From: a virus
IMG/VR virus record: IMGVR_UViG_3300009285_001772
Coordinates: 1-52,145 of that record
Direction: 5' to 3' (one strand)
DNA: 52,145 bases
The position numbers were made by a program, and so were the translations under genes. The notes below the pieces were generated by a model. That model did no database searches. It had not been told where the DNA came from and worked only from the letters and a program-made list of their open reading frames with translations. Positions 1 to 52,145 of this stretch are shown here, piece after piece. Each line of letters starts with the position of its first letter. The stretch's first letter is position 1.

Positions 1-77
1 TTATTTTTTCTTGGTCTTACTGGCATATTTCTTTGATAATTGGGCTTCTAATAGCCTGCGGACTACTACCACCAATA
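1..77. repeat. Terminal direct repeat, left copy (circular closure)
   Basis: These 77 bases are identical to the last 77 bases of the window. The gene that begins at 51321 reads in frame through the join, which shows that the contig is a closed circle or a circularly permuted molecule. An exact 77-base overlap equals a common de Bruijn assembler k-mer length, so it is most likely the assembly overlap and not a biological terminal repeat. Confidence 0.95.
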
Positions 78-353
78 CAAAGAGTAAGCGCTCGTATCCT
101 ATATTTTTTAATTGTTTGCATATCTTTTCTACTTGATAAAACTTTGATAAATCATCCCATGCTTCTTCTTCAGGGATTTCTTTTATTGAGAAACAGTTCA
201 ATTTATCCATGTTTTCCTTTCATTCAATGGTGGGACAAGCCAAGTATATTATATCATAAGAAACCAAAGGCTTACAAGTGGCCTTTTGTTACAGGTTATA
301 GAGAAGGACTTAAAATTAGTGACTACATCGGAGCCTTTAGACTCGCAGGCTAA
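3..353 (+). CDS. 3' part of YfhO-like polytopic membrane protein (continues from 51321)
   Basis: This is the C-terminal part of the gene that starts at 51321. With the join closed, the product is 366 residues (51321-52068 plus 1-353). This part has a hydrophobic run, then an LLPPIQR turn, a further hydrophobic segment, and a more polar tail ending GAFRLAG before TAA at 351-353. YfhO-type and other GT-C-fold proteins are usually far longer (600-900 residues), so the protein may be a shortened version. The last 35 bases overlap the next gene in another frame. Confidence 0.65.
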   Translation: MFSWSYWHISLIIGLLIACGLLPPIQRVSARILYFLIVCISFLLDKTLINHPMLLLQGFLLLRNSSIYPCFPFIQWWDKPSILYHKKPKAYKWPFVTGYREGLKISDYIGAFRLAG

Positions 354-609
354 ATTCTATATAGCAACAATCAATAGTCTCGGTCATTCTGTATTACTAG
401 AAACTATTCGATCTGCTGTTTTTTATCTTAATAACTCAAATCAAATCTGCAAAAGTCGTTTTTTCAAACTTGAGTTAAAAGAAGGTAAAAGTTGTTATGC
501 TTTCATACAAGGGTCAGGATTGGATGCCATGCTAAACGAATGGAATCTTGAGTATGATCCTTTTCAAATTAGAGTAAATTTTAATTATCTTATAAGGCAC
601 TCACTATGA
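319..609 (+). CDS. Hypothetical protein, 96 aa
   Basis: No family is recognised. The GTG start at 319 is chosen because AGAAGGA lies about 12 bases upstream; an in-frame TTG at 286 would lengthen it by 11 residues. The product is soluble, with mixed hydrophobic and basic residues and no membrane segment. It overlaps the end of the preceding membrane-protein gene, and its stop overlaps the next start as ATGA, so it is probably translationally coupled to the glycosyltransferase that follows. It could instead be a displaced C-terminal piece of the shortened membrane protein. Confidence 0.5.
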   Translation: MTTSEPLDSQAKFYIATINSLGHSVLLETIRSAVFYLNNSNQICKSRFFKLELKEGKSCYAFIQGSGLDAMLNEWNLEYDPFQIRVNFNYLIRHSL

Positions 610-1595
610 AAGTTTCAGCTATCGTATGCCATCATAAAGGAAGATTGATTTTGAAAGCTTTACAATCTCTCAAAATACAGAAAAATGTAGAACTTGAAAT
701 TATTGTTGTAACTTCCTGTCCTAATGTTTCATTTTACGGAGTAAAAACAGTTTTTATAAAGGGGCTTCCGGCCTACAAAAGAAATATTGCGCTTAGATAC
801 GCAACTCATGATTATATTGCTTTTTTTGATGATGATGTAGAATTAAAAGAAAATGCAGTATTTGAAATGGTCAATTTTCTTGAGAAATATCCTCAGGTTG
901 GTATGGTATTTGGAAAACTTCTCAATATGGAGTTCAAAGATAGATTTGATGAGGCTGGAAGTTATCTCACCAACACAGGATTTCTTTGGGCAAGATCCGA
1001 AAGCGGAGTGAAAGATACCGGACAATACGATTCCTTTGAACCTATTTTAGCTGGTAAATCAGCATCTTGCATTATCAGAAGAAAAATTTTTAGTGATATT
1101 GGAATGTTCAATCCATTTTACGGAATACTTGGAGAAGAAACTGATCTTGCCTGGAGAGTTTGGCTTTATGGACATTTAGTTTATTACATTCCAACTTCCA
1201 TTACTTACCATGCTTTCAATACTAAATTTAAGCCAAAAGATTTTTATACAGCAGAAAGAGTTTATTTTAACGGATGCAGAAATTATCTTACAATGCTAAC
1301 AACTAACTTGGAACTTCATAATCTAATTATCCCTCTCTTTATTCAGATTTGTGCATGGATTATTGCATCATTTGGAATGGTATTAAACGGTCGTTTTCTT
1401 GCAAGTTGGAATATCATAAAAGGATTGTATGCTTATTTTACACATCTTGATGTAATTTTAGCAACAAGAAAAAGGATACAAATTTATAGAGTTAAGAAAG
1501 ATTCTGAAATATTTTCGATTATAAGAAAGAATCCCCCATTATCTTACTACTTAAAAAGATTGTTAAATTATATTAAGACAGGTTTGCATGGTTGA
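606..1595 (+). CDS. GT2 family glycosyltransferase
   Basis: A 329-residue GT-A fold glycosyltransferase of family 2, predicted to transfer a sugar from an NDP-sugar to a glycan or lipid acceptor at the inner membrane. The nucleotide/metal-binding triplet DDD lies at residues 75-77 in FFDDDVEL, and the acceptor-side acidic motif is EETD at 177-180. A hydrophobic segment at about 236-256 suggests membrane anchoring after the catalytic domain. ATG at 606 overlaps the preceding stop, and the 3' end overlaps the methyltransferase by 8 bases, so it is one transcription unit with the cargo island. Donor and acceptor are unknown. Confidence 0.88.
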   Translation: MKVSAIVCHHKGRLILKALQSLKIQKNVELEIIVVTSCPNVSFYGVKTVFIKGLPAYKRNIALRYATHDYIAFFDDDVELKENAVFEMVNFLEKYPQVGMVFGKLLNMEFKDRFDEAGSYLTNTGFLWARSESGVKDTGQYDSFEPILAGKSASCIIRRKIFSDIGMFNPFYGILGEETDLAWRVWLYGHLVYYIPTSITYHAFNTKFKPKDFYTAERVYFNGCRNYLTMLTTNLELHNLIIPLFIQICAWIIASFGMVLNGRFLASWNIIKGLYAYFTHLDVILATRKRIQIYRVKKDSEIFSIIRKNPPLSYYLKRLLNYIKTGLHG

Positions 1596-2253
1596 AGATT
1601 ATTGGCCTACTCTCTATGATGATCCTTATGCGTTTAAAAGAATAAAGAAGTCAGTTGAATTAGCTGATTTAAAATCTAGTTTTAGAGTTCTCGATGTTGG
1701 TTGTCACAAAAAAGAACTCAGGGAACTTCTCCCATTAGATACCGATTATCACGGAATGGACATAATCCAAGGCGATAACTTTGATGGCGGCTTTGAAAGA
1801 CTCAAATGGATCTACAAATTAGACGAAAAGTTTGACCGAATATTTTGTTTAGAGACTTTAGAACATTTGAAAGATCCTGGGGGAACCCTAGAGTCAATTC
1901 GGGATTGCTTGAAAGACGACGGAATTGCCGTTATATCGCTTCCGAATGAAGCAACTATATTTCACCGAATAAGGGGGCTTTTCGGAGTTATGGATCAAGA
2001 ATGTTTCTCTTCTTCTGGAAAGCATCTTCACTTGCCAAGTCTTAAACAATCTCGAAATTTTGTTTCTAAGTATTTCCATATTGAAAAGGAAAGCTATTAT
2101 ATTAATCTTTTTATTAGTTCTTCACAGCAAGCAAACCTACTAAAAATGACAAAATTGCTCCCAGAACATACCTGGCAATTTCTAGCAGATAAATTTCCTT
2201 CATGGTTTTCTAGAGGGTTTATATTTAAGTTGAGAAAGAAAACTTCCATCTGA
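1588..2253 (+). CDS. Class I SAM-dependent methyltransferase
   Basis: A 221-residue Rossmann-fold methyltransferase of the Methyltransf_11/23 type. Motif I is VLDVGC at residues 34-39, and a post-motif ETLEHL near 88-93 followed by an LPNE-type strand resembles small-molecule or sugar methyltransferases. It is the last plus-strand gene of the cargo island and ends 24 bases before the convergent stop of the minus-strand radical SAM gene. In this setting it most likely methylates a glycan or lipid intermediate; a protein or other small-molecule target is not excluded. Confidence 0.85.
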   Translation: MVEDYWPTLYDDPYAFKRIKKSVELADLKSSFRVLDVGCHKKELRELLPLDTDYHGMDIIQGDNFDGGFERLKWIYKLDEKFDRIFCLETLEHLKDPGGTLESIRDCLKDDGIAVISLPNEATIFHRIRGLFGVMDQECFSSSGKHLHLPSLKQSRNFVSKYFHIEKESYYINLFISSSQQANLLKMTKLLPEHTWQFLADKFPSWFSRGFIFKLRKKTSI

Positions 2254-2276: not shown

Positions 2277-3347
2277 TCATATAATGTGGCAAAATTTTCT
2301 CCAATGTTCTTCAACTACTAATCTAACACCCCTTGCTAGATAAGTAAAATCTTCCCAGCATTTTATGTCCTTAATTTTATTATACCAAAATTCAGGGTGT
2401 TTGTAAACATCGTAGTACAAAGGCACACGACTATGTCCGATTGATTTTGGATCGGGGGCTGTTCTTGGTGGGTTATATATAGAAACCTGACCTGTTTTTG
2501 CGTAACCTTTTCTAAGAAGGAATTGAAAGTAGTCTCTTGTATTTTTCTCCTCTTCTTCTGTTTCCCACGGATACGAAGTCATCGAAGTGATGTGCGGCTC
2601 TAGCCCCACATCTGCCATAGCCTTGATATTTTTAGTAACATTGGCCTGATGCTGACCCTTCCTGATGATATCCAATGTTTTCTGATTTGCTGATTCAACG
2701 CCGACTAGGATGAATCGGAATCCAGCCTCTTTCATCATATCGAAATCAAGTTTAACTGGTTTCATATTGCAACCAACTTTAATCTTTTTATTTCTATTAT
2801 TTTTTCTCATTTCAGAGCAAAAATCATCCAGCCATTTTCCTACTGGGAATGTTCCGGAATCGTCAAAGACTTCCTTGTAACCATTAGCTATGAGATTATC
2901 TATTTCTTCCATGACATGAGCTACAGAACGTGTTTGCTGGGGTTCCCCATGCTCTAGTTTATAAGTATCAATGCAAAATGTACATTTTCCCCACCAACAG
3001 AGGTTAGAAGCCATCATGTGTGTGGCAGGATGAAACTTATAATTTCCGTATGATTGCCAACGCTTGTTCTTACCATCCGTAAATTCACGGTTAGGAAATG
3101 GGAGTTTGTTAAAATCAACATCAATTTGGAAATCATTTTCAATGATTTTATAAAAACCTTCTCTGTGAAATTTATTAAACCAATCTTCTGCCCTAAAATG
3201 GTACCCCTTATTTTCATCCCACTCAACATGATGTCCTTGATTCCTTAAATAAGTCGCATACATAGCTAAATGAGCAGGATATACCCAAACTGGTTTCTGA
3301 AACTGCCGCTGCTGATTCCATGGACTAAGAGGAAAGAGGTATCTCAT
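2277..3347 (-). CDS. Radical SAM protein with atypical CX4CX2C cluster
   Basis: A 356-residue radical SAM enzyme. The iron-sulfur motif is C117-x4-C122-x2-C125 (LCWWGKCTFC), not the usual CX3CX2C. Downstream strands (FDDSGTF, GVESANQKTL) fit the radical SAM TIM barrel. The N-terminal 50 residues (YPAHLAMYATYLRNQGHHV) look like the end of a cobalamin-binding domain, but most of that domain is missing. AGGAAGA precedes ATG at 3347. It is the last gene of the minus-strand module, convergent with the cargo island, whose other radical SAM genes are on the plus strand. The reaction is unknown; a role with the island is inferred only. Confidence 0.85.
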   Translation of the reverse strand: MRYLFPLSPWNQQRQFQKPVWVYPAHLAMYATYLRNQGHHVEWDENKGYHFRAEDWFNKFHREGFYKIIENDFQIDVDFNKLPFPNREFTDGKNKRWQSYGNYKFHPATHMMASNLCWWGKCTFCIDTYKLEHGEPQQTRSVAHVMEEIDNLIANGYKEVFDDSGTFPVGKWLDDFCSEMRKNNRNKKIKVGCNMKPVKLDFDMMKEAGFRFILVGVESANQKTLDIIRKGQHQANVTKNIKAMADVGLEPHITSMTSYPWETEEEEKNTRDYFQFLLRKGYAKTGQVSIYNPPRTAPDPKSIGHSRVPLYYDVYKHPEFWYNKIKDIKCWEDFTYLARGVRLVVEEHWRKFCHII

Positions 3348-30596: not shown

Positions 30597-31342
30597 TGGC
30601 TCATGAACAAATAATTAGATCAGTAGATTTTAATTATACAGGTACAGCATATTCTTTAATTGGAGTATCAAATGATGGAATAACTTGTACTAATTACATT
30701 ATCTTAGCTAGCGACAACTCTATAGTTATAGTTAAAGGATCGGGAATATTTATTTCTGCTCTTACTAATGCTGGAGGAGTCGGATCAACTTATGCAGCAA
30801 CAGGTAATACTTACATAGTTACTGATTTATCTACTGATCTAACTAATGAATTTCGTTTAGTTCAATCTGGCAACTCAATAACTATTAATACCGCAGGAAA
30901 TAACATAATTATTAATGCTGTTACGAATGGTGGTGGCGGTGGTGCTGTGGCTAGAAGTGTAACTTTTATGTCTCAAACATCTGCTGTTTGGACTAATATG
31001 CCAGCTGCTTTTACTGAGTTTATGGGTAATTTTCAGTTTAGAAATTTATTTGATATGACTGGAGTAACTTCTGTTAATTTATCAGCAACTGTTACAACGG
31101 TAGGTTCTGCGGTAACTGCACTTTATTTGATGTGGTCAACAAACGGTGGAACGACTTTTGATAATGTTGGAAATGTTGGAAGTAGTCCTACTGTGAATAT
31201 TGGAGTTGCTGGTATTAGAACGTCTGGTTGGGCGTTTTTAAATACAAAATTAACTGGAGAATGTATTTTAGCTGTTTGGGGTTCAGATGGTAACTTGGCT
31301 CTTGATCCTAGATTCGGAAATGTTTCAGCACTTTTTAAATAA
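30596..31342 (+). CDS. Fibre-like protein sharing a module with the gene at 28081
   Basis: 248 residues. The middle region LTNEFRLVQSGNSITINTAG and IILASDNSIVIVKGSGIFIS parallel the modules in the protein starting at 28081. The C-terminal half (TFMSQTSAVWTN, LYLMWSTNGGTTFDNVGNVG) is unrelated and probably forms the binding tip. Start overlaps the previous stop (TAATG). Confidence 0.6.
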   Translation: MAHEQIIRSVDFNYTGTAYSLIGVSNDGITCTNYIILASDNSIVIVKGSGIFISALTNAGGVGSTYAATGNTYIVTDLSTDLTNEFRLVQSGNSITINTAGNNIIINAVTNGGGGGAVARSVTFMSQTSAVWTNMPAAFTEFMGNFQFRNLFDMTGVTSVNLSATVTTVGSAVTALYLMWSTNGGTTFDNVGNVGSSPTVNIGVAGIRTSGWAFLNTKLTGECILAVWGSDGNLALDPRFGNVSALFK

Positions 31343-33408: not shown

Positions 33409-33660
33409 ATGTCAATAGAAGATAAAATTAAAAGTTCAGTTCCAATTATGCGGAGAGTTTTTGACATTGAAAAAATAGTTTACGGTTCTATTCAGGAAAA
33501 TGGTTACTTTCTTACTTTTAATGAAAATAAAATACTTGAATTTGATACTTCTCAGATTGCTTCCGATAATGCTTTGGCTCTAAATCAGGCGATTTCACCC
33601 ATATTAAGTTCGCTTCGCTCATCAGCTAGACAACAGATAAACACAATTCTAAATGCTTAA
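33409..33660 (+). CDS. Hypothetical protein, 83 aa
   Basis: ATG at 33409 with AGGAG 8-12 bases upstream. It is alpha/beta with a helical C-terminus (NQAISPILSSLRSSARQQI). It lies between adaptor and nozzle-like genes and overlaps the latter by 8 bases. Probably a small tail protein. Confidence 0.6.
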   Translation: MSIEDKIKSSVPIMRRVFDIEKIVYGSIQENGYFLTFNENKILEFDTSQIASDNALALNQAISPILSSLRSSARQQINTILNA

Positions 33661-40861: not shown

Positions 40862-40880
40862 AAATATTATTATTTATCAC

Positions 40881-40909
40881 TTGACAGATAAACATATATA
40901 ATATAATAT
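40881..40909 (+). promoter_or_regulatory. Sigma70-like promoter of the cargo island
   Basis: TTGACA at 40881-40886, 17 bases before TAATAT (40904-40909) or 15 before TATAAT (40902-40907). The expected start lies near 40914-40916, 3-5 bases before the ATG at 40919, with no Shine-Dalgarno sequence before it (AGGAAGG lies inside the coding start). The first gene is thus nearly leaderless. Confidence 0.7.
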
Positions 40910-40918: not shown

Positions 40919-42532
40919 ATGCAGGAAGGTTTATCTTATCTCTTTAATACTTCTCTTGGTAATCTTCTAGTAATCTCTTTCCTCCATTTATCCGCTTGGA
41001 TTTATTGTCTCACATTAAAAAGTTGGGTTTCTGACGATATTGAAGGAATTGCAAAATTCTCGGATCGTTTTTTGCAAACAAGAGACAAAAACGGTATTTT
41101 CCTTAAAGAAGAAACTATTAAAAGTTACCAGCAAGAAACTGGTGAAAAAGATAAGGACGGGAAACCTGTAACAGTTGAAATCAGAAATACTCAGTTTAAC
41201 AAGTATCTTGGGTTTCCAGCATCCATCATGCGATGGATTCGATTAAATTATGGGAAAAAATTTGTAAAACTAGGAGTCAACAAAGACAACCATCCCATAT
41301 ATGGATATTCTCAAAGTGTAGTCAAGCATCATCTTCTAAACATATTATCTCAATGGATAGTTTTAGTTCTTCTTTATAACTTTTTAACTCCTTTAATTGG
41401 AACAAAACTGTCTTTTTTATCAACGCTTATCTTTTGTCTGCATCCGTGTCTTGTACAATGTGTCGGATGGATTTCAGGCATCAACTACGTTTTTTCCTTA
41501 ATTGGGACTCTCACGACCTTAAATGTTGTCCAGAATTTTGATAATCCAATTATTGTTTACCCAGCTATAGTTCTTTCTACAACTTTTTCAGCTATGACTC
41601 TACTTCCTGGTTGTTTCACATTTGTCATTCTATTGTTTCTTGGTTTCTGGAAAGAAGCGGCAGTAGTGGGTATGATTGGATTATATATCTTATTAAAGAT
41701 CGGGAAATGGACTGTTAATTATCGTATAAAAGCTTTTAAAGACCAAAATATGCAGAAGTCAACGTTCATTACATTTAGAAAACCCATTGTGATGATTAAA
41801 ACATTTTGGTATTACATTAAACTTATTGTATGGCCGAAACGTCTTGGACTTTTCCATACATGGGGATATCACTTTGATGAACCTATTGAAAAAGTTGATC
41901 GTGAATTTTGGTTCGGACTTATCTCTATAGGAATCGTTTGTTCACTGTTTTTATTCTTTCAGTTTCCATTAAAATTTGCGGTTTTATGGTATTTTACATA
42001 CCTTGTTATTTTCAGTAATTTTATAACAGCCCAACAATTTGTTTCGGAAAGATATGTTTATACATCCCTGGTTGGTTTTTCGATTATCCTTGCTTATTTT
42101 ATTCAAGATTATCCTGTTTTAATAGCTTTTATACTTGGAATCTACATAATGCGGATTTGGATACATCTTCCAACTTATAAAAATGAGGTTAGGTTTTATG
42201 AGTCAAATTGCTTCAATTTTCCAGATTCTGAAGTTGCAATGGGGAACTTGGGAGTTTCTTACTTGAATCATGGGTATCATCACAAAGCTTACGACCAATG
42301 GCTTGAGGCAACACGCCAAAATTCGACTTATGATGTACCCTGGTATAACCTTTATTCTCTCACAAAACAAAATGGCGATATTATAAATGCTAGAAACTTC
42401 TTGTCGGAATGTCTCAAAGCAAAAATTATTCACTTTAGAGAACAATGGGAAAAAGAACTCAAAGAAATTGATGCCATAATTGCTCAGGCAGTTTCGGATG
42501 GAAAAATCAAAGTTGTCCAACAACCCAAATAA
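40919..42532 (+). CDS. TMTC-like polytopic GT-C glycosyltransferase with TPR
   Basis: 537 residues, about 9-10 membrane helices, then two TPR-like units (about 435-505, VAMGNLGVSYLNHGYHHKAY and VPWYNLYSLTKQNGD). Acidic loop WVSDDIEG after the first helix, LHPCLVQCVGWISGINYVF and a later SERYVYTSLVG motif match, from memory, TMTC/ArnT-type GT-C enzymes that use polyprenyl-phosphate sugars on the outer face of the membrane. It probably transfers a sugar to an extracytoplasmic acceptor. It heads the cargo island behind its own promoter. Confidence 0.75.
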   Translation: MQEGLSYLFNTSLGNLLVISFLHLSAWIYCLTLKSWVSDDIEGIAKFSDRFLQTRDKNGIFLKEETIKSYQQETGEKDKDGKPVTVEIRNTQFNKYLGFPASIMRWIRLNYGKKFVKLGVNKDNHPIYGYSQSVVKHHLLNILSQWIVLVLLYNFLTPLIGTKLSFLSTLIFCLHPCLVQCVGWISGINYVFSLIGTLTTLNVVQNFDNPIIVYPAIVLSTTFSAMTLLPGCFTFVILLFLGFWKEAAVVGMIGLYILLKIGKWTVNYRIKAFKDQNMQKSTFITFRKPIVMIKTFWYYIKLIVWPKRLGLFHTWGYHFDEPIEKVDREFWFGLISIGIVCSLFLFFQFPLKFAVLWYFTYLVIFSNFITAQQFVSERYVYTSLVGFSIILAYFIQDYPVLIAFILGIYIMRIWIHLPTYKNEVRFYESNCFNFPDSEVAMGNLGVSYLNHGYHHKAYDQWLEATRQNSTYDVPWYNLYSLTKQNGDIINARNFLSECLKAKIIHFREQWEKELKEIDAIIAQAVSDGKIKVVQQPK

Positions 42533-43544
42533 GATTATTTTTAGTTGTATCATTCCTGCCTCTGCCAAAGACTTAAAATCAGATAAACTAAAAGATTTAA
42601 TAGATTCAATCAAGGCACAGGATTTTCAAAAAGACCTTGTTGAAATAATTATAGTGACTAATTTTAAGGAACCACTAACAGAAACTCTCCATCATAATTT
42701 GGAAGGAATAAAACTTTATTTTACGGATGGAGATTCTGAACAAGCTAAATCGGAAGGTATAAGAGTTTCCAAAGGTAAAATATGTACTATGTTTTGTACT
42801 GACAATTTTATAGTTTCAAGATTTTTGTTTAAAATTGTTTATACTCTTTTTTCCAAACATGACGTAACAGGAATTTATACAAAATACTACACTTGCAGTA
42901 AAAACGATAATTCTTTAAATAGATACTTTTCTTTAATCGGAAACAATGACCCGATTGCGTTTTATCTTGGGAAAAATGATAGATTGCCGCATTATCAAGG
43001 AGATGAAGAAGTTGTTATGGATTTAGTCGAATTTAAAAACAAAGTTCCATCTTTAGGGGATAATGGTTTTTTTTATCTCAGAAAAAAAATAATTGAAACG
43101 AACTTAGACCATTACTACCCGATGGACAATGCTGAGGATTTAAGAAAAAAAGGAAATTATACTTATTTTAGAATATTCCCAGCAGTTTGGCACAGAACAT
43201 CAGACTCCTTAATCTCGTTTCTTAAAAAGAGGTACAAATATGCAAGAGACTTATACAGTGACCGTAGTGATAGACGGTGGAGAATGGTCGATACAAAAGA
43301 GGATAAGTTTAGACTTGCTTTGTTCATCTTCTATACTCTCACAGTTATTCAGCCCCTATATATCAGTTTTAAGGGATATTCCAAAGTACGTGACATGGCA
43401 TGGTTCTGGCATTTCCCAGTCTGTGTCGGATTCCTCATTATCTACACCTTCTTAGTTTTAAGGAACCTATTTAAATATGGAACATTATTCCAATGCCGAA
43501 AGCAAGTATTATTATCCCGACCCTTGGCAGAAGCCAAAGTCTGA
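42498..43544 (+). CDS. GT2-like glycosyltransferase with C-terminal membrane segments
   Basis: 348 residues from ATG at 42498; an in-frame TTG at 42480 is an alternative. The N-terminal GT-A fold has FSCIIPASAKD, VEIIIVTNF and RVSKGKICTMFCTDN, in which the usual DDD is TDN, so donor binding may be altered. A DNGFFYLRKKII segment fits the acceptor-side strand. Hydrophobic helices at about residues 270-325 anchor it in the membrane. It overlaps the upstream TMTC-like gene by 35 bases and the next by 52. Donor unknown. Confidence 0.75.
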   Translation: MEKSKLSNNPNKIIFSCIIPASAKDLKSDKLKDLIDSIKAQDFQKDLVEIIIVTNFKEPLTETLHHNLEGIKLYFTDGDSEQAKSEGIRVSKGKICTMFCTDNFIVSRFLFKIVYTLFSKHDVTGIYTKYYTCSKNDNSLNRYFSLIGNNDPIAFYLGKNDRLPHYQGDEEVVMDLVEFKNKVPSLGDNGFFYLRKKIIETNLDHYYPMDNAEDLRKKGNYTYFRIFPAVWHRTSDSLISFLKKRYKYARDLYSDRSDRRWRMVDTKEDKFRLALFIFYTLTVIQPLYISFKGYSKVRDMAWFWHFPVCVGFLIIYTFLVLRNLFKYGTLFQCRKQVLLSRPLAEAKV

Positions 43545-44275
43545 AAAAATGTGTAGAAAGTATAGAAAATCAAACTTTCAAAGATTATGAAATTATTCTT
43601 ATTACCCAAGAAGGTGAACTTGCAAAACTTCGTAATGAAGGAGCGAAAAAAGCAAGCGGAGAATATCTTATATTTATCGACGATGACGTTATCACAGATC
43701 CCGAATGGCTTGAAACAATTATCAAGACGTTTCAGGATTCTCGAACCGTCTATGGAGTTAGTGGGTTGTCTATTATTCCTCTTGAATACAGAAAGAATCG
43801 AGATATCTTTCGTTTCATATTCTTTAAGTTCCTATACGATAAAATTTTCTGTCATGGGCAAGAATACTTACCTGGTTTCGTTACAAGGGCAGGAGCTTGG
43901 ACGACTGGAGCATCTAATCCTAACTGTAATTATGAAGGTGAGGTCATGTTTCTTGAGGCTTGTAACATGGCTTTTAGAAAAGATGCCTTTGAACGGTGTA
44001 GAGGATTTGACGAGTCGTTTCGAGGAGTAGGAGATTGGAGTGAACCAGATCTTTGTTACAGAATTAGGAAACTTGGCGGAATACTTAGATTCACACATAA
44101 AGCAAGGCTATACCATTTGCCGAGTAAAAGCGGAGCCTTTAGTAAACGAAAACGGGAAGCAAAAACAAGATTGTCAAATTACCTTCTATTTTCGAGAAGA
44201 TGGGTTAAACCCTGTTTTATCCATAGTCTATACAAGTTATTCTTGAGAATTTATTATGCGATTAAGACCACTTAA
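43493..44275 (+). CDS. GT2 family glycosyltransferase
   Basis: 260 residues. Canonical GT2 start (MPKASIIIPTLGRSQSLKKC), DDD at 63-65 (FIDDDVITDP), a GACNMAFRKDAFERCRGFDE-like acceptor segment (EACNMAFRKDAF) and DWSEPDLCYRIRK near 186-198. It ends with a short basic tail without a clear membrane helix. It overlaps both neighbours in the island. Probably adds one sugar to a lipid- or glycan-linked chain. Confidence 0.9.
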   Translation: MPKASIIIPTLGRSQSLKKCVESIENQTFKDYEIILITQEGELAKLRNEGAKKASGEYLIFIDDDVITDPEWLETIIKTFQDSRTVYGVSGLSIIPLEYRKNRDIFRFIFFKFLYDKIFCHGQEYLPGFVTRAGAWTTGASNPNCNYEGEVMFLEACNMAFRKDAFERCRGFDESFRGVGDWSEPDLCYRIRKLGGILRFTHKARLYHLPSKSGAFSKRKREAKTRLSNYLLFSRRWVKPCFIHSLYKLFLRIYYAIKTT

Positions 44276-44555
44276 TGATAATTTGGTTGTGAAACTAGAT
44301 GAGGATGAATGGGTTGGAATGAACAAACCTGAACTTGTGGAAATCCCTGAATCTAGCATAGGTTGGTATGTAAAAAAGTCAAGATGGGGGACAATTATTT
44401 CTTGGGGAAATGGATGTAAAAATACTTACAAAATAGGAGAAAAAGTAATGTTCCAATTTTCTAGTTTTAGACCTGGAATTAAAACAGAAGATGGAGATTG
44501 CAGGATAGTTATGGAACAAGAACTTTTAGCAAAGGACGAAGATGTTAGACCTTAA
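44256..44555 (+). CDS. GroES-like co-chaperonin
   Basis: 99 residues, the length of Cpn10. It starts MRLRPLNDNLVVKLD, has a proline-containing loop (NKPELVEIPESS) where the GroES mobile loop sits, GTIISWGNG and KIGEKVMFQFSSFRP, and a C-terminal RIVMEQELLAKDED. GroES caps GroEL during protein folding; phages such as T4 (gp31) encode replacements for capsid folding. No GroEL is present. Its place in the middle of glycosyltransferase genes, not head genes, is unusual. Confidence 0.85.
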   Translation: MRLRPLNDNLVVKLDEDEWVGMNKPELVEIPESSIGWYVKKSRWGTIISWGNGCKNTYKIGEKVMFQFSSFRPGIKTEDGDCRIVMEQELLAKDEDVRP

Positions 44556-44781
44556 ACCATACGGTGCTTTTATAGAAAACACAATAAGACCTCTTGTTGA
44601 AGAATTTCATATTCTATTTAAAGAACTTCAAAAAGTTGGAGTAAATATATCCAAAGAAGATGTGATGAAATTAGTTAAAATAGTAGCCAAAGAACATTTC
44701 AAATGTATGCTTCTTTGGTCAATTACTGCGATTATCTTATGCGCTATAATCTGTAATACTCTATGGAAGATTTATCAGTAA
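44542..44781 (+). CDS. Small single-span membrane protein, 79 aa
   Basis: Overlaps the GroES-like stop and the next glycosyltransferase start. A charged N-terminal part (IRPLVEEFHILFKELQKVGV) is followed by a C-terminal membrane helix (about 55-75, MLLWSITAIILCAIICNTLW). Possibly a membrane anchor for the neighbouring glycosyltransferases; no family recognised. Confidence 0.6.
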   Translation: MLDLKPYGAFIENTIRPLVEEFHILFKELQKVGVNISKEDVMKLVKIVAKEHFKCMLLWSITAIILCAIICNTLWKIYQ

Positions 44782-45452
44782 TAATTCCTTTTTATGAGGA
44801 AGATCATAGAACTTTAGACAAAATAATTAAAGAACTAGAAAAACATGATATTGAAGTAATCGTGGTAGATGATGGCTCGAAAAATCCGTACAAAAAATCA
44901 ATCAAGCATGGAGAAAATTTCGGATACGGCTCAGCTTTACTTACAGGCATTAAAAACTCAACAAGACCTCTTATTATCACAATGGATGGTGACGGCCAAC
45001 ATACGGTTGCGGATGTATTTAATCTCTATGTTGCTTGGCAAATTATAAAAGATTGTGACCTTCTGATTGGGTCAAGACGATTAAAAAATGAGTTATGGTA
45101 CAGAATGTATGGTAGAAAATTTCTTAATTTGATTGCATCTTTAATAACTGGTTTTTATTTTCAAGACTTAAATTCTGGAATGAGAATGTTTAAGCGTAAT
45201 ATTGCGATAGGGTACTTTCCTATCCTTTGCAAAAAATTCTCTTTTACAACAAGTCTTACGATTTCGATGCTTTGTGATGGGTATAGGGTTGAAAGTTTTC
45301 CAATTCGAGTCGAACCAAGAAAACATGGGAGAAGTCATGTCAATGTTTTAAAAGATGGATTAGTTACACTTTATTATATTTTATATACTGGGTTAGCTTT
45401 GAGAACTAGAAAGCTTCGCGCTTGGCTAAGAAAAATCCGATTTTCACGGTAG
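44763..45452 (+). CDS. GT2 glycosyltransferase, polyprenyl-phosphate sugar synthase-like
   Basis: 229 residues with GT2 motifs close to dolichyl-phosphate mannosyltransferase: VIIPFYEED at the start, VVDDGS at 34-39, a GSALLTGIKNS helix, DGDGQH at 75-80 and LNSGMRMFKR near 139-148, typical of the DPM1/GtrB/ArnC group. It most likely makes a polyprenyl-phosphate-linked sugar, which would be the donor for the GT-C proteins at 40919 and 51321. No strong C-terminal membrane pair is seen. It overlaps the deacetylase start. Confidence 0.88.
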   Translation: MEDLSVIIPFYEEDHRTLDKIIKELEKHDIEVIVVDDGSKNPYKKSIKHGENFGYGSALLTGIKNSTRPLIITMDGDGQHTVADVFNLYVAWQIIKDCDLLIGSRRLKNELWYRMYGRKFLNLIASLITGFYFQDLNSGMRMFKRNIAIGYFPILCKKFSFTTSLTISMLCDGYRVESFPIRVEPRKHGRSHVNVLKDGLVTLYYILYTGLALRTRKLRAWLRKIRFSR

Positions 45453-45964
45453 ATTGGGAATCTTGGTGGGATGCAATTCCTCAATATGTTTATGACAAAA
45501 AAGATGATAGAATTTACGAACCTACGATATTTCTTCTTAAAGTATTGGATATATTTAGTGTCAAGGCTATATTTTATATTTTAGGATCAACTATGATTAG
45601 AAATCTTAGAGTTTATGATACAATTATTAAAGCCGGACATATCATTGGGACTCATGGACATTTCCATAGACATAATCTTTATATTGATCATCCTTTATTT
45701 AGATCTCCTTATTGGGATACTACTCCTATGCCTTATCCGCCAAGTGGCGGATTCTTTTTTAGGTTATTACCTTTTAATTATATTAAATGGGCTATAGAAA
45801 AAAGTGGAGTATTTTGGATTCATCCTCATGATTTAGACACTAAACATCCTTATGTCGATAATAAGTGGATTAATTTAAAAAGACATATTGGTTTAAAAAA
45901 ATCTAGATTAAAATTATTTAGATTACTTTCGGAAGTGGAATTTGGCGAACCATCCAAAAATTAA
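45422..45964 (+). CDS. Polysaccharide deacetylase (NodB) with a central deletion
   Basis: 180 residues. TTG start at 45422. NodB motifs: FTVDWESWW (D11), GHIIGTHGHFHRH (H78-H84, HxxxH metal site), FRSPYW (93-98) and WIHPHDLD (132-139). Compared with the DUF3473/XrtA-type family (about 270-300 residues), the segment between FR(S/A)P and PPSGG is almost wholly missing (about 60 residues), and the second Asp of the VDxED-type motif is Ser. It would remove N-acetyl groups from a glycan if active. Overlaps both neighbours. Confidence 0.82.
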   Translation: MAKKNPIFTVDWESWWDAIPQYVYDKKDDRIYEPTIFLLKVLDIFSVKAIFYILGSTMIRNLRVYDTIIKAGHIIGTHGHFHRHNLYIDHPLFRSPYWDTTPMPYPPSGGFFFRLLPFNYIKWAIEKSGVFWIHPHDLDTKHPYVDNKWINLKRHIGLKKSRLKLFRLLSEVEFGEPSKN

Positions 45965-46685
45965 AGGAGAACCCGAAGATGAAAAGATGGTACAAGATTA
46001 CGTATCCAGGTGGTATTCGATTCGTTATTCTGGATCAGGTTTTTTGTACCATTCTAGGATTGTTACGGAAATGCTTGATGGCATTAAATTCAAGGATGGA
46101 AAATATTCTGATAAAGTTCTTGACGTGGGGTGCGGTATCGGTTTTGTGTCTCAGTTATACCCTAATTTTGATATTACAGGTATCGACATATCTGATGGTA
46201 TGCTTGAGAAAAACCCTTATAAGTGGATCAAAGCTCCTGCTGAAAAGATACCTTTTGAAGATAATACTTTTGATTTTGTCATTTGCCGTTCTTTGTTACA
46301 TCACCTCGAAAATACTACTGTTGGCCTTCGAGAAATGGTAAGGGTGTTGAAAAAAGGCGGAAAGTTTATTTGTTGGGACCCAAATGCTGGATTTTTTGCA
46401 ACTTTTATAAGAAAACTGTTTCAAAAAACTAAAAGATTCAGTCATCTTCATCATTCTTTTAACGATATTGAATTGTATAATTTAATAAAAGAATCTGGCT
46501 TGAAAGTAGAATGGGCTAGGTATATCGGATTTCTTGCTTATCCATTGACAGGATTTCCAGACATTTTCAATTTTAAGGTTCCGATTTGGCTTGTCCGAAA
46601 ATTGATTCAACTTGATAATTTATTATCTTATTCTCCTTTCAAAAGAATAGCATGGAGTTTAATGATTAAAGCAACAAAAGAATAG
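45942..46685 (+). CDS. Class I SAM methyltransferase (Methyltransf_11)
   Basis: 247 residues from TTG at 45942 (AGTGGAA just upstream); an ATG at 45987 is a later alternative. Motif I KVLDVGCGIGFVS at 58-70, ITGIDISDGML, then EKIPFEDNTFDFVICRSLLHHLEN and VRVLKKGGKF, a textbook UbiE/Methyltransf_11 pattern. The C-terminal region has a hydrophobic stretch and basic end. In this island it probably methylates a sugar or lipid-linked intermediate. Confidence 0.9.
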   Translation: MANHPKIKGEPEDEKMVQDYVSRWYSIRYSGSGFLYHSRIVTEMLDGIKFKDGKYSDKVLDVGCGIGFVSQLYPNFDITGIDISDGMLEKNPYKWIKAPAEKIPFEDNTFDFVICRSLLHHLENTTVGLREMVRVLKKGGKFICWDPNAGFFATFIRKLFQKTKRFSHLHHSFNDIELYNLIKESGLKVEWARYIGFLAYPLTGFPDIFNFKVPIWLVRKLIQLDNLLSYSPFKRIAWSLMIKATKE

Positions 46686-46705
46686 AAATATGGTTAAAAT
46701 ACTTT

Positions 46706-48268
46706 ATGAGTAGTTTATACGGTGATAGAGAAATACCAAAAATCGGAAAAACCATTACTATCGGAAAAGAGCTTGGCTATGAAAAAGTTAAGCTAGAAAA
46801 TCAAGAATTTGATAAATCTCCTAAAAATTTAAGAATTCTTTTCATAAACCCACCAGTTGACTTTTCCGTATTTTATTCCGACATGGATTTATCAGATACG
46901 AAAAGCAGTAGTCCTCCTATAGGAATACTTCATTTAGCTGCTATTTGCAGAGAATACGGATATAAGGTTTTCTTGCTTGATGCCCACGCTGAAGGTTTTG
47001 ATATACCCAAAATAATGCGGAGAATAGAAGAATTTGATCCGCATATTGTGTGCTTAACAGCCATGACTATTATGATTGATGCTTCCGCTGAAATTGCAAA
47101 GGTTATAAAAGAAAGATTTCCTAGAATTATTACCATGATCGGAGGGGTTCATATTACAGCAGAACCTTTAAAAACTTTAGAGAAATATCCACAATTTGAT
47201 TATGGTGTTGTCGGAGAAGGAGAACTTGTATTACTTGATTTTTTAAATAGTCTAAATTGTGGAATCGGAAATAGTAGTGTGCAATCCCTTGTCTGGAGAA
47301 ATGGTGATAAAATTATCGTAAATAGCAGGAGAAATTTCTATAAAGATTTGGATGATTTTCCGTTTCCTGCATTTGATCTTGTTGGTGAAAAATTATTCAG
47401 TCATTATAGACTTAGCGTATTTGGAACAAAACATTTTAGAAGTATTGGACTTGTCACAAGCCGAGGTTGTTCGGGGTATTGTTCTTTCTGCGATCTTGGA
47501 GTAGTCGGACGAGGATACCGAATTATGACAGCTCCATATCTAATTAAACATTTAAAAGAACTTAATAAGCAATATAAAGTCAATGATCTTCTTTTCTATG
47601 ATGATATGTTTACAGGAAACAAGAAAAGATTAGTCGATTTTTGTGAGGAAATGATAAGAGAAGGAACTCCTTTTACATGGAGTTGTTGTTCAAGGGTTGA
47701 TTTCGTATCTTATTTGGATGTTTTAGAACTTATGAAAAAGGCGGGTTGCCACGCAATTGAATTCGGAGTCGAGTCCGGTTGCCAAAGAATTCTTGACTCG
47801 ATACGCAAAAATGTAACAAAAGAGAAAGTTGCCCATGTTATTAATATGGCTACAAAAGCAGGAATTACTACAAAAGCTAATTTTATTTTAGGTCATTTGG
47901 GTGAAACTTTTGATTCCATTGAAGAAACTATTGAGTTTGCAAATCAATTAAATGTTTGTTATGTTCAACATACTCATCTTGTACCATTACCTGGTTCTGA
48001 GATTTATGAGAAAGCCCATAAATACGGAACATTTGACCCATCCTGGTCTAAAATGAATACACTTCTTATCAATTTTATTCCTAAAGGTTTTACAAGAGAA
48101 GATTTAGTTTACTACTCTAAAAAGTTTTGGAGAAAGTTTTATTTAAGACCTAGAACTATTATTAGAGAACTTAAAAGAATTGATGGGTGGGAAGATATTT
48201 TGAGGCTTTTCCTAGCCGTAAAATCTTTTCTGAAAGTTGCTTTGTTTAGAAAGAAAACTTTGGGATAA
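46706..48268 (+). CDS. B12-binding-like radical SAM protein, 520 aa
   Basis: N-terminal Rossmann domain of the cobalamin-binding type (about 42-180: RILFINPPVDF, PPIGILHLAAICREYGYKV, PHIVCLTAMT, IGGVHITAEP, DYGVVGEGE). Radical SAM core with C255-x3-C259-x2-C262 (SRGCSGYCSFC), then DDMFTGNK, IEFGVESGCQRILD and FILGHLGET. Class B radical SAM methyltransferases have this order and methylate unreactive carbons or tailor lipids and glycans. The substrate is unknown; the context suggests an envelope component. Confidence 0.92.
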   Translation: MSSLYGDREIPKIGKTITIGKELGYEKVKLENQEFDKSPKNLRILFINPPVDFSVFYSDMDLSDTKSSSPPIGILHLAAICREYGYKVFLLDAHAEGFDIPKIMRRIEEFDPHIVCLTAMTIMIDASAEIAKVIKERFPRIITMIGGVHITAEPLKTLEKYPQFDYGVVGEGELVLLDFLNSLNCGIGNSSVQSLVWRNGDKIIVNSRRNFYKDLDDFPFPAFDLVGEKLFSHYRLSVFGTKHFRSIGLVTSRGCSGYCSFCDLGVVGRGYRIMTAPYLIKHLKELNKQYKVNDLLFYDDMFTGNKKRLVDFCEEMIREGTPFTWSCCSRVDFVSYLDVLELMKKAGCHAIEFGVESGCQRILDSIRKNVTKEKVAHVINMATKAGITTKANFILGHLGETFDSIEETIEFANQLNVCYVQHTHLVPLPGSEIYEKAHKYGTFDPSWSKMNTLLINFIPKGFTREDLVYYSKKFWRKFYLRPRTIIRELKRIDGWEDILRLFLAVKSFLKVALFRKKTLG

Positions 48269-48278
48269 TTCATTAAAT

Positions 48279-49604
48279 ATGAATATATTGTTTGTAAATC
48301 CTCCAAGCCCAGATAATTTCATATATATCAGGGACATAAACCGTTCTGGCCGAAAAAGTAAAGAAAGAACTATTTGGCCTCAAACAAGTCTTGCGATGAT
48401 GGCAGCTGTATTCCCAGAAGATAACTGTAAAATCTTAGACTGTATTGCAGAGAAAATTAGTTATAAAGATTTATTTGATAAAATGCAGGAATTCAAGCCG
48501 GATTGGGTTGTTTTCAATCCAATCAGTTCAACTGTAACCCATGACATGATTGTGGCCCATTACGGAAAAAGTCTTGGGGCAAAAACAGTGGCAATTTCGC
48601 CGCATACTAAAGCCTTGAGGAAAGAGTCTCTTGAACGATATAAAAGTCTTGATTATTCTGTCGATTACACAAAGGACGGTACAGAACCTGAATACAATTT
48701 GCGAGAACTTATCAAAGGAATTAGCGCGAAAGACACCAAATTTGAAGATTTGCCGCCAGCTCGTCAGGACTTGCTTCCTATACACAGATACTCTCTACCA
48801 TTTATCGGACAAGGATATACTTTCGTCATTACTAGCAGAGGTTGTCCCTGGAAATGCATTTACTGTAGACAAACGGTAATGAACGAAAGTAAAGTTCGTT
48901 TTCGTCCGGTTTCTACGATTATCGAAGAAATAAAAAAGTATAATCTTCGCAATATTGCTTTTCATGCCGATACAGCCACTATGAATAAGAGGTGGATTTA
49001 TGAGTTTTGTGATGAAGTGGACAAACTTCCATTCAAAGTTAGGATTGTTACTAATAGTCGTGTGGATACTATTGACTATGATATACTTGTTAGGATGCGA
49101 AAATCTGGATTCTGGATGGTTTGTTATGGGATTGAATCGGGTGACGATAAAATTTTAGCTATGAACAAAAAGGAGGCTACTTGTGAACAGGCTAGAAAAG
49201 CAGTTGAATGGACAAAAAGATCAGGGATGCGTGTGTGGGGATATTTCATGCTTGGAATGTATGGGGACAGCCCTATTACTATGCAGCGAACTATCGACTT
49301 CGCTTGCGAACTTGCCCCTAACATCGCTAACTTCGCTATCTCAGCTCCCTATCCTGGCACAGAATGGGGTGAGATTGCAGAAGCTAAGGGATGGCTTGTT
49401 GATAAAAGATGGGAAGCTTACGATCAAAATTATTCAGCGCAAGTCTCGCAACCAAAATGTGACATTTCAACAATCAGAAGATTCCAGAAAAAAGCATATT
49501 TACGATGGTACTTCTCTTCGAGAGGAATTCGATTCTTATTATCAGGATTTCGACCTGAATATTTAGGATACTTTTACAGCACCATAAAAGACCATTTAAT
49601 ATGA
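48279..49604 (+). CDS. B12-binding-like radical SAM protein, 441 aa
   Basis: ATG at 48279 is chosen because MNILFVNPPSPD is the usual start of the family. N-terminal Rossmann-like domain (1-150: IWPQTSLAMMAAVFP, DWVVFNPISSTV) then C189-x3-C193-x2-C196 (SRGCPWKCIYC), CYGIESGDDKIL and FMLGMYGDSP. It is close in layout to the preceding protein but not a close copy. Probably a second tailoring enzyme of the same pathway. The 3' end overlaps a small gene. Confidence 0.92.
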   Translation: MNILFVNPPSPDNFIYIRDINRSGRKSKERTIWPQTSLAMMAAVFPEDNCKILDCIAEKISYKDLFDKMQEFKPDWVVFNPISSTVTHDMIVAHYGKSLGAKTVAISPHTKALRKESLERYKSLDYSVDYTKDGTEPEYNLRELIKGISAKDTKFEDLPPARQDLLPIHRYSLPFIGQGYTFVITSRGCPWKCIYCRQTVMNESKVRFRPVSTIIEEIKKYNLRNIAFHADTATMNKRWIYEFCDEVDKLPFKVRIVTNSRVDTIDYDILVRMRKSGFWMVCYGIESGDDKILAMNKKEATCEQARKAVEWTKRSGMRVWGYFMLGMYGDSPITMQRTIDFACELAPNIANFAISAPYPGTEWGEIAEAKGWLVDKRWEAYDQNYSAQVSQPKCDISTIRRFQKKAYLRWYFSSRGIRFLLSGFRPEYLGYFYSTIKDHLI

Positions 49605-49807
49605 AAAATAATTACGACGACAAAATAAAAGAGTTTGTTAAACTTTCTGATTCTTATTCTATTAATAAAGATGATTTCTTAAACGATATGAAGATCCATT
49701 GGAAAAAAGTAACTGAATTTGAATGGTGCAATCAAAAAGATATTCCTATCCATGTAAATATTAAAATTAAAGGAAAAATTTTATTTAGGATATGTTATTG
49801 CAAGTGA
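49601..49807 (+). CDS. Hypothetical protein, 68 aa
   Basis: Start overlaps the preceding stop (ATGA), and end overlaps the SPASM protein start. Charged N-terminus (NNYDDKIKEFVKLSDSYSIN) and CYCK end. No family; likely expressed with the island because of its two overlaps. Confidence 0.55.
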   Translation: MKNNYDDKIKEFVKLSDSYSINKDDFLNDMKIHWKKVTEFEWCNQKDIPIHVNIKIKGKILFRICYCK

Positions 49808-50682
49808 CTCCTTATGCCCAATTTGTCAAAAGACTCCCATCCTGGCTTTATAAAATCTCAGGACAATTCTACATCAAAAAAGATTTCCCTCGCCACATTT
49901 TTATCGAAACAACAGCTTCCTGTCAGCTTAAATGTAGCTATTGTCCAAGGCAACAAATCAGCGAAAATATGGATTTTGGACTCTTTCGGAAAATTGTCGA
50001 TGAGGCTAGTCAATATGGATCTCGAAGCTTTAGCTTACACCTTTTTGGTGAACCGCTCCTATATCCCAGCTTCTTTGAAGCTGTCCGTTACATCAAACAG
50101 AGGAATAAAAGCAACACTGTCCTTATTACCACGAATGGGCTTAAACTCAATGAGTGCATCGACGATTTTATATCTTGTGGGATTGACCAGACTTACTGGA
50201 CATGGCGACCAGAAACAAAGTTTAGAGAGTCCACCTTACTGAAACTTAGGAAATGGAAAAGATTTAGAGTTCGTTTTATAAATGAAATTACACCGAAGAG
50301 GATACTTGAGAAATGGTCGGATTGGCCAAACATAGAAAAAAGAAGGATGCACAATTTTGGAGGATGGATAAATCTCCTAAAATTTCAGAAACAAAATGTT
50401 CATTCTGTTTTAGGGAATTCAATAGACCGTTGGCCATGTTATCATCTTTGGCTCGCTCCTGCGGTTGCTTGGAACGGGAAATTTCTTATGTGCTGTTCAG
50501 ATCCTCACCAGAAAGAAGTATTTGGAGATATAAACAGAGAAAGTATTTCAGATTGTTGGAAAAAACTAGAAAAAGTGAAACAATCTCATCTAAAAGGTGA
50601 GTACAAAGGAATATGTGAAAAATGCGATGTTTGGAAAGTTTACCCAGATTTGTTCTTCAAATTCCAAAAAAAAGTATCTTAG
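49792..50682 (+). CDS. Radical SAM/SPASM protein
   Basis: 296 residues. Radical SAM motif C44-x3-C48-x2-C51 (ASCQLKCSYC), LHLFGEPLLYP, VLITTNGLKL, then a C-terminal SPASM-type region with C216, C234, C235, C275 and C278 (PCYHLW, GKFLMCCSDP, FGDINRESI, GICEKCDVW). SPASM enzymes carry extra Fe-S clusters and act on peptides or on sugars/aminoglycosides. In this setting a sugar substrate is plausible; no precursor peptide gene is evident. ATG at 49792. Confidence 0.92.
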   Translation: MLLQVTPYAQFVKRLPSWLYKISGQFYIKKDFPRHIFIETTASCQLKCSYCPRQQISENMDFGLFRKIVDEASQYGSRSFSLHLFGEPLLYPSFFEAVRYIKQRNKSNTVLITTNGLKLNECIDDFISCGIDQTYWTWRPETKFRESTLLKLRKWKRFRVRFINEITPKRILEKWSDWPNIEKRRMHNFGGWINLLKFQKQNVHSVLGNSIDRWPCYHLWLAPAVAWNGKFLMCCSDPHQKEVFGDINRESISDCWKKLEKVKQSHLKGEYKGICEKCDVWKVYPDLFFKFQKKVS

Positions 50683-50703
50683 ACTAGATCTCAAAATTAA
50701 AAG

Positions 50704-51339
50704 ATGGTAAAAACAATGGAATTTGTTCTACCTACAATTATTAAAAACAGTATTCAAACTTATTCTCTTGTTCCTAAAAATTCAACAGTTCTTGATGTAG
50801 GAGGTGGAGATGGAACAAAAGCAAAAAAACTTTATCCAGATTCAAAAATCTTTACTATTGACATAAAAAATGGTTGGAATGTTATGGAGAAAGGGTTACC
50901 TGAAGGAGATTGGGATGTTATTCTAGCCAATCATTTTATAGAACATATAAGTAATCCTGATTACTTCTTAGATCAATGCAAAAAGATTATGAGAGAAAAT
51001 ACAATATTGGATATTGGGACACCAAACCTAGTGGCTTGGTTCAACCGGATGACTTTCTTATTTGGTTATATTCCTCATTCAATGGAATTATCTACTAAAT
51101 TTAATGTTGGAAAGCCTTTTGATTGGAACAATGAGGAACTTGGTGGGCACATCTACGTACATAGTTTAAGATCACTTAAAGAACTCCTAATTAATCATGG
51201 GTTTGAGATAATAACAGTAATCGGGGAGTGTTCAACATTCAAGTGTAGTCCTGTAATACTCACTTTAGATAAGATTATTACATTTATTAATCCAAATCTT
51301 TCATCAGCCATAAGAGTTAAATGCACTATCTCTTCTTAG
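50704..51339 (+). CDS. Class I SAM methyltransferase
   Basis: 211 residues with motif I STVLDVGGGDGTKA (27-40), TIDIKNGW, DVILANHFIEHI, then TPNLVAWFNRMTFLFGY and HIYVHSLRSLKELL, the common layout of glycan-cluster methyltransferases. It overlaps the next membrane-protein gene by 19 bases. Third methyltransferase of the island. Confidence 0.85.
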   Translation: MVKTMEFVLPTIIKNSIQTYSLVPKNSTVLDVGGGDGTKAKKLYPDSKIFTIDIKNGWNVMEKGLPEGDWDVILANHFIEHISNPDYFLDQCKKIMRENTILDIGTPNLVAWFNRMTFLFGYIPHSMELSTKFNVGKPFDWNNEELGGHIYVHSLRSLKELLINHGFEIITVIGECSTFKCSPVILTLDKIITFINPNLSSAIRVKCTISS

Positions 51340-52145
51340 TTTTATACTGGATAATATTCTGGCAGAAATTTCTATGGAATCCTTATCTTTTATGTACATC
51401 AGAGATAGCTTCTACATTCTTTCCGCATTGGCGTTGGATGGGAAATCAATTAAGACAAGGAATTTTTCCTTCTCAAGATAATATTTATTACAAACTACCA
51501 GGCTCAATTCCTTTTTTAGCTACATTTTATCCACCCAATCTTATCTCAGCATGGTTTGGGTCATTTCTTAAAGAAGATCATGCTTTTAAGCTCTATGCCT
51601 ATATGATAATAGGCCATTTTTTATTATGTTCTATCTTTGCTTATCAGCTATTTGGTAACTTATTTGGAGCCATCACACTTGCTTATGCTGGCTATTGCAT
51701 TAAGCCTAATACTCCCACTTTTGTATTCTCTGCTACATGGGTTCCTTTGGCTTTACAAGGAAGTTCAATTGGATGGGCTATGGCATTGTTTGGAGGATAC
51801 TATCCGATACTGGTTTATATATTACCCATCGTAGCCTTCTTACAACCAATTAGTTTTATAACAGGTATGCTTATAGCAACACCACAACTTATACCGTTCT
51901 TGGGATACTTTAAAAGGTCAATCAGGGTTAAGGAAAAAGTGGACATAAACTTTGGGAGAGTTCCTTGGTGGAAATTAGCAGACTTAATTAATCCGATTAG
52001 AAATATCAATACTACCAATGGTGTTCTATATCCAGAAATGATGATGTATATGGGAATTGCTCCGTTAATTATTTTTTCTTGGTCTTACTGGCATATTTCT
52101 TTGATAATTGGGCTTCTAATAGCCTGCGGACTACTACCACCAATA
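51321..52145 (+). CDS. YfhO-like polytopic membrane protein, 5' part (continues at 78-353)
   Basis: ATG at 51321. The frame stays open to the end of the window and continues across the join to 353, giving 366 residues. Start MHYLFLVLYWIIFWQKFLW, then WRWMGNQLRQGIFPSQDN, FLATFYPPNLISAWFG and HAFKLYAYMIIGHFLL, a pattern like the N-terminus of YfhO/GT-C-type membrane proteins (a luminal loop followed by FxPPN). About 8 hydrophobic segments in all. It could use the polyprenyl-linked sugar made by the DPM1-like protein. The function is inferred. Confidence 0.65.
   Translation, partial: MHYLFLVLYWIIFWQKFLWNPYLLCTSEIASTFFPHWRWMGNQLRQGIFPSQDNIYYKLPGSIPFLATFYPPNLISAWFGSFLKEDHAFKLYAYMIIGHFLLCSIFAYQLFGNLFGAITLAYAGYCIKPNTPTFVFSATWVPLALQGSSIGWAMALFGGYYPILVYILPIVAFLQPISFITGMLIATPQLIPFLGYFKRSIRVKEKVDINFGRVPWWKLADLINPIRNINTTNGVLYPEMMMYMGIAPLIIFSWSYWHISLIIGLLIACGLLPPI
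52069..52145. repeat. Terminal direct repeat, right copy
   Basis: Identical to positions 1-77; see the left copy. Both copies are the same genomic place, inside the polytopic membrane protein gene. Confidence 0.95.

Follow-up and report, generated by a model that had tools for sequence, protein, structure and literature searches.

A conserved glycan-modification gene island in one clade of uncultured tailed phages, probably directed at the host surface

The IMG/VR virus record IMGVR_UViG_3300009285_001772 was analysed over its whole length of 52,145 nucleotides (positions 1 to 52,145, hereafter the window), which includes a large island of glycan-modification genes that begins at 40919, passes through the join of the two ends and closes at 2253. 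The island is 13,403 bp long, about a quarter of the genome, and its genes mostly overlap and lie entirely on the plus strand. Both ends of the window carry the same 77 bases without mismatch (1-77 and 52069-52145), and identical ends usually mark a contig as circular; hence we read the map as a circle of 52,068 bp. An open reading frame (ORF) at 51321..52068+1..353 remains open and in frame through the join (366 aa), and the stretch across the join is contiguous in the relative G001 and in other records. The coordinates, strand and wrap of the island had been proposed in an earlier description made from the letters alone (the sequence-only reading) and are confirmed by these features; its account of the gene content was likewise borne out when families were assigned with Pfam, NCBIfam and PHROGs, and relatives add nucleotide-sugar genes. 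Family searches of the window proteins also found a terminase, an SU10-type portal, a capsid protein and an SLT (peptidoglycan-cleaving) protein, a set that indicates a tailed phage with a bacterial host; the match to the SU10 adaptor was weak. Positions 21867-30750, a stretch outside the island, match a second assembly (L031) at 99.93% identity.

The first island gene (40919..42532) encodes a TMTC-like glycosyltransferase of GT-C type, 537 aa long and with C-terminal tetratricopeptide repeats (TPR), as recognized from motifs, an AlphaFold2 model and Foldseek. The DD motif in its first outer loop (D39 D40) is invariant in 13/13 genomes, and R378 of the (E/D)R motif, corresponding to ERxxY in EL5 of TMTC proteins, is invariant in the seven sequences aligned and preceded by E or D. 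The TPR region is matched both by Foldseek and by profile comparison with the TPR of OGT (E 2e-20), while the best non-TPR match of the model (pLDDT 76.7) is ArnT (5f15, E 5e-3). Pfam found no DUF1736 (PF08409) loop in this protein, and when viral structures were searched with the model in Foldseek, mainly TPR/Sel1 proteins came back, none significantly. The YfhO-like membrane protein that spans the join (51321..52145 then 1..353) has no Pfam match; its orthologue is uninterrupted in L025 (15865-16965), and an acidic residue is kept in 10/11 sequences. When the G001 orthologue was modelled (pLDDT 66, a modest value), the top four Foldseek matches were all GT-C enzymes, with AftA, ALG12 and DPY19 the best (E 0.18-0.31) and none significant, such that this protein can be assigned to the GT-C type only weakly. 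Structure prediction with Foldseek, a check put forward by the sequence-only reading, recovered the TPR, but matched the GT-C fold only at E 5e-3 (ArnT) and 0.18-0.31.

Four enzymes of GT2 fold accompany them, although not in the combination of four GT2s plus a DPM1-like synthase that had been counted before: three are GT2 glycosyltransferases and the fourth is the DPM-like synthase itself. GT2a (42480..43544) is divergent, with C-terminal transmembrane (TM) segments, a weak MftF match and none in Pfam, and the Asp of its DN motif is invariant in 13/13. GT2b (43493..44275; PF00535, E 4e-19) has a DDD motif invariant in 13/13, and that of GT2c (606..1595; PF00535, E 3.5e-10), which ends in a TM segment, is conserved. 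The GtrB/DPM/ArnC-like polyprenyl-phosphate sugar synthase (44763..45452) matches phrog_841, a GtrB-like O-antigen conversion family (E 2.7e-16), and, among structures, ArnC (9hwj, E 1e-9) and GtrB (E 8e-4); its DxD motif is invariant in 12/12. Enzymes of this kind charge polyprenyl phosphate, and GT-C enzymes use that donor at the outer face of the membrane. The synthase is without a clear TM helix in 11/12 genomes, the exception being G012, with a hydrophobic segment close to where the protein is annotated to start. The overlapping gene upstream (44542..44781) encodes TM79, a small protein found in 12/13 genomes with a single hydrophobic segment at its C-terminus in 12/12. Because the synthase has no clear TM helix while the adjoining gene encodes a one-TM protein, we propose, by analogy with DPM1/DPM3, that TM79 may serve as its membrane anchor.

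The remaining enzymes would tailor sugars. A short polysaccharide deacetylase of NodB/XrtA type (45422..45964) matches PF11959 (E 1e-11) and PF01522 (E 1.6e-5), as well as TIGR03006 below cut-off (E 1.6e-15), and its motif residues are mostly conserved. Methyltransferases are encoded at 45942..46685 (MT1, S-adenosylmethionine (SAM)-dependent; PF08241, E 8.7e-23), 50704..51339 (MT2; PF13489, E 9e-14) and 1588..2253 (MT3, SAM-dependent; PF13489, E 7e-14). Of the two B12-like radical SAM enzymes previously claimed, rSAM1 (46706..48268) is well founded: it matches PF02310 (E 5.5e-24) and PF04055 (E 8e-24), and its CxxxCxxC motif is invariant in 13/13. Its B12 histidine position is occupied by His in seven orthologues, Gln in five and Tyr in one, and B12 use may differ among them. 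The claim is weaker for rSAM2 (48237..49604; PF04055, E 8e-21), which is without the base-off His and matches the B12 domain below cut-off (E 0.0024). A radical SAM/SPASM protein follows at 49792..50682 (PF04055, E 9e-9; PF13186, E 1e-7). The closest solved structures are AprD4 for rSAM1 and BtrN for the SPASM protein (E 3e-15), both being enzymes of aminoglycoside pathways that act on sugars or cyclitols. The block does end at 2253, but just beyond it, on the minus strand and facing the island end, is a fourth radical SAM gene (rSAM3, 2277..3347; PF04055, E 2e-16), and the same border recurs in most relatives. In every radical SAM protein, rSAM3 included, the cluster cysteines are invariant. 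Also within the island are a 68-aa ORF with no family match (49601..49807) and h107 (286..609), a conserved 107-aa protein present in most relatives. The GroES-like protein (44256..44555) is supported by PHROGs (phrog_3188, E 3e-5) and falls short of the Pfam cut-off (PF00166, 17.9 bits against 21.1; E 0.0033). Since GroES occurs in the distant relatives BK063670 and MW202601, both without the island, it is probably a capsid co-chaperonin rather than a glycan gene.

A sigma70-like promoter heads the island on the plus strand (40874..40909), with TTGACA at 40881-40886 and a -10 element reading TATAAT/TAATAT. Taken singly, this site does not rise above chance in such AT-rich DNA, the window having 51 promoter-like sites where 55 are expected, but TTGACA recurs no more than 75 bp ahead of the first island gene in 9/13 genomes compared with 24/950 other ORFs (Fisher p 1.3e-11); in every other named gene family the count stays below three. 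That the hexamer was merely inherited without selection seems unlikely, as the island proteins share just 36-60% identity with those of the window. The recurrence suggests that the island may be expressed by the host polymerase, apart from the virion operon.

Relatives were gathered by scanning with the capsid protein, which gave 74 viral loci, and with radical SAM, TMTC and SPASM alignments, which located island-bearing loci; TMTC and rSAM1, when used as single-sequence queries, matched no viral contigs. Gene maps of 22 records place the island in 13 (the window and 12 other IMG/VR records), and L170, a fragment with the full gene order, is a fourteenth carrier. Whether the gene order recurs in related phages, as the sequence-only reading had asked, is thereby answered: the island is nearly colinear in most carriers, the exceptions being G006 (deacetylase moved), G005 (deacetylase missing), G013 (end shuffled) and G014 (strongly rearranged), and in G012 it is cut by the contig end. 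TMTC, GT2a, GT2b, GroES, TM79, DPM, NodB, rSAM1, SPASM, YfhO, h107, GT2c, MT3 and rSAM3 form the core, while rSAM2 (7/13 genomes), MT1 (7/13) and MT2 are variable. Island-bearing contigs occupy one side of a 100/98 branch in the capsid tree, and of nine long contigs from this phage family that fall outside the clade none carries the island. Distances among island proteins follow those among structural proteins (Mantel r 0.82, 0/5000 permutations), third-position GC of the island tracks that of each genome (r 0.84, range 0.28-0.50), and island proteins average 44% identity across genomes. In three sister-clade contigs without the known island (L077, L085 and L087) a TMTC-like GT-C gene with TPR lies just downstream of the capsid gene, which makes the TMTC-like enzyme older or more mobile than the island. 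Among 50,697 phage records there was no close match and none to TMTC, and radical SAM matches were remote, for example in Streptomyces phage SF3 and Campylobacter phages; GTDB genomes scanned with rSAM1 and with the capsid protein contained no relative. HNH-like genes, probably homing endonucleases on sequence grounds, interrupt islands at differing points, some on the opposite strand (G003 28732-29196 and 29728-30150; G005 42292-42657; G011 26342-26758; G013 20920-21315). G013 (41,234 bp) and G017 (IMGVR_UViG_3300009105_000002, 95,319 bp) are apparently one virus, and G017, about twice the length of its relatives, may hold more than one genome length or other DNA joined.

No nucleotide-sugar synthesis genes were found in the window, nor were a priming transferase, flippase, polymerase or ligase, so the complete donor synthesis that had been read into the island does not hold. 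A product with the dimensions of a GtrA flippase (about 120 aa, four TM segments) is absent from the window, TM79 having a single segment. Nucleotide-sugar genes are present in the relatives G005 and G008-G014, in or beside the island. These encode GDP-mannose 4,6-dehydratase in G008 (TIGR01472, E 1.5e-88) and G012 (E 4.6e-117), and alike by sequence in G009, G011, G013 and G014; cupin isomerase-like proteins in G009-G014; and SDR epimerase-like proteins in G009, G010 and G012. G008 further has an RfbH-like aminotransferase, an RmlD-like reductase and a GT2, and G005 a weakly matched nucleotidyltransferase, a beta-phosphoglucomutase-like HAD protein and a GT2. These accessory genes are the strongest independent support for glycan synthesis. 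Adjoining the island of G010 (IMGVR_UViG_3300020202_000091) at 29002-29427 is a probably secreted DUF4430 protein, a domain we take to be related to transcobalamin-type B12 binding. Beside the island of G011 (IMGVR_UViG_3300020045_005352) at 13272-15047 is a TonB-dependent receptor gene (591 aa; PF00593, E 3e-28; plug, E 3e-15), whose closest named model is a B12 receptor scoring far under its cut-off; the gene suggests a Gram-negative host for G011 at least, and the clade as a whole probably infects Gram-negative bacteria.

We consider it almost certain that the island is a real and selected glycan module. That the host surface is its target is likely, and the combined reading, in which one clade of uncultured tailed phages stably maintains the block, under selection, as a module for glycan modification that remodels the host surface, is the one we favour as probable. 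Transcription by host RNA polymerase would begin at the TTGACA promoter; TM79 would hold at the membrane the GtrB/DPM-like enzyme, which would load polyprenyl phosphate with a sugar, presumably from a host nucleotide sugar; the membrane-bound GT2s would lengthen the lipid-linked glycan on the cytoplasmic side; and the deacetylase, methyltransferases and radical SAM enzymes would tailor its sugars. The TMTC-like and YfhO-like proteins would spend lipid-linked sugars on the periplasmic side, on host lipopolysaccharide (LPS)/O-chain or a surface protein. The changed coat could block re-adsorption and superinfection, or mask the receptor; whether superinfection exclusion is the main benefit we judge an even question. 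The tail protein at 33653-36475 and a presumed tail protein at 29787-30596 carry LamG/ConA-like lectin domains; those of the former are consistent with a glycan receptor, in which case an altered coat would be useful against re-adsorption. A bolder formulation, which we offer tentatively and think rather doubtful, is of a clade-defining factory based on radical chemistry, in which GT-C enzymes and as many as four radical SAM enzymes, of which one or two are B12-type, build sugars foreign to the host, with a split synthase (a soluble GtrB-like enzyme and small anchor, as in DPM1/DPM3) and a promoter of host type, separate from the late genes, and which re-coats the infected cell.

Several points count against remodelling of the host surface. 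The Fisher test on TTGACA treats the genomes as independent although they are related by shared ancestry, neither GT-C fold match (E 5e-3 and 0.18) reaches E 0.001, and without its own flippase, priming transferase, polymerase and ligase the pathway depends on the host. The island, moreover, is directly downstream of the virion genes on one strand, which leaves room for a virion role. Glycosylation of the phage's own capsid or tail, to shield it or change adsorption, is the best-placed alternative, although we regard it as unlikely. It gains from that position, from the cytoplasmic GT2 enzymes and from the TMTC-like gene immediately behind the capsid gene in the three sister-clade contigs; capsid glycosylation has been proposed for glycosyltransferase-bearing phages, including some mycobacteriophages (PMC11256854). 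The active sites of GT-C enzymes, however, open to the periplasm or ER lumen (PMC7801869), a placement that suggests the envelope and not a cytoplasmic virion, and the DPM-like synthase with two GT-C-type proteins implies that lipid-linked donors are used on the periplasmic side, remote from where virions are assembled; the TM segments of GT2a and GT2c and the island's own promoter argue in the same direction.

A pathway for membrane lipid or a small molecule, for example hopanoid or other glycolipid tailoring in which the glycosyltransferases decorate lipid instead of LPS or protein, is improbable. B12-type radical SAM enzymes have many substrates, and BchE and HpnJ are the highest-scoring named models for rSAM1 and rSAM2; the scores (188/481 and 162/578 bits) are nonetheless far under the equivalog cut-offs and these identities were rejected, no hopanoid or isoprenoid genes were seen in the islands, and the accessory genes are nucleotide-sugar genes. 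It is very improbable that the island is stuffer or cargo, made of glycan genes captured from a host that do nothing for the phage, as was raised for cyanophage LPS clusters (PMC3037559): gene order and catalytic residues are kept at an average 44% identity in one clade, and we favour function because order, active sites, promoter recurrence and co-inheritance with capsid genes are conserved. A chimeric assembly of host and phage DNA, suggested by the record end falling within the island and named beforehand as a ground for rejection, is ruled out by the recurrence of both borders in many records, the capsid-tree clade, the Mantel and GC correlations, and G003 and G007, which carry the island with terminal repeats elsewhere on the map.

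One of the closest known systems is gtrABC of the P22, epsilon34 and SfV type, which is also phage-borne, pairs a polyprenyl-phosphate sugar synthase (the phrog_841 match) with a GT-C-type transferase, for which the two GT-C-like proteins are the candidates in the island, and takes nucleotide sugar and acceptor from the host. The island differs in having about 16 genes rather than three, with two GT-C-like proteins, three GT2s, a deacetylase, three methyltransferases and four radical SAM proteins, and in a synthase without C-terminal TM helices; no integrase or repressor pointing to a temperate phage was recognized among 20 non-island proteins (part of the ORFs) scanned against PHROGs. Because GtrA was not found, the island was not filed as a gtr module. 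With no flippase, priming transferase or polymerase found, it most likely works in the manner of a larger gtr operon, on a lipid-linked or surface glycan that the host has made. With TMTC O-mannosyltransferases (PMC7801869) its first protein shares the membrane GT-C domain, the DD in the first outer loop, the (E/D)R motif and the C-terminal TPR, and differs in being phage-borne and without a DUF1736 match; ArnT remains its best fold match outside the TPR.

Large sugar clusters are not new in phages, contrary to the earlier view of an undescribed kind of system. Multi-gene LPS clusters are known in cyanophages P-SSM2, S-SSM7 and S-SM2, the two largest in myoviruses of 232-252 kb, with genes partly common to the three phages and the choice between function and stuffer left open (PMC3037559); the island, by contrast, is a conserved and ordered module, a quarter of a 52-kb genome and a clade marker. 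Nucleotide-sugar synthesis together with glycosyltransferases, as in a cluster of the cyanophage type, is seen in the relatives G005 and G008-G014 and not in the window. Pelagimyophages also carry glycosyltransferase/LPS genes, for which a change of host O-chain and exclusion of rivals were proposed (PMC7029224), and the accessible portion of that study has no radical SAM set like that of the island. Searches of the literature returned no phage glycan clusters with radical SAM genes, and the literature available had no counterpart to the island's radical SAM content, its share of the genome, its strict conservation or its possible split synthase. Such conservation in so small a genome tips the question posed by the cyanophage clusters strongly towards function, and allows that function to be tested. 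With the island, phage surface remodelling gains radical SAM sugar chemistry and perhaps a GtrB split in two, and new carbohydrate enzymes may come from it.

Other observations concern neighbouring genes and the wider phage family. In L055, another family member, a 638-aa ORF (9568-11484) fuses GT2-like and methyltransferase-like parts. The window encodes an SPFH/Band 7 protein at 10478-11614 (PF01145, E 1e-10) that was not seen in the relatives mapped, and at 7517-8221 a 234-aa protein with a long alanine-rich repeat (AYAVANAA...). At 3670-5022 a long run of repeats of SNLWSNLQDN type occurs with DUF6745, in a protein that G006 also has.

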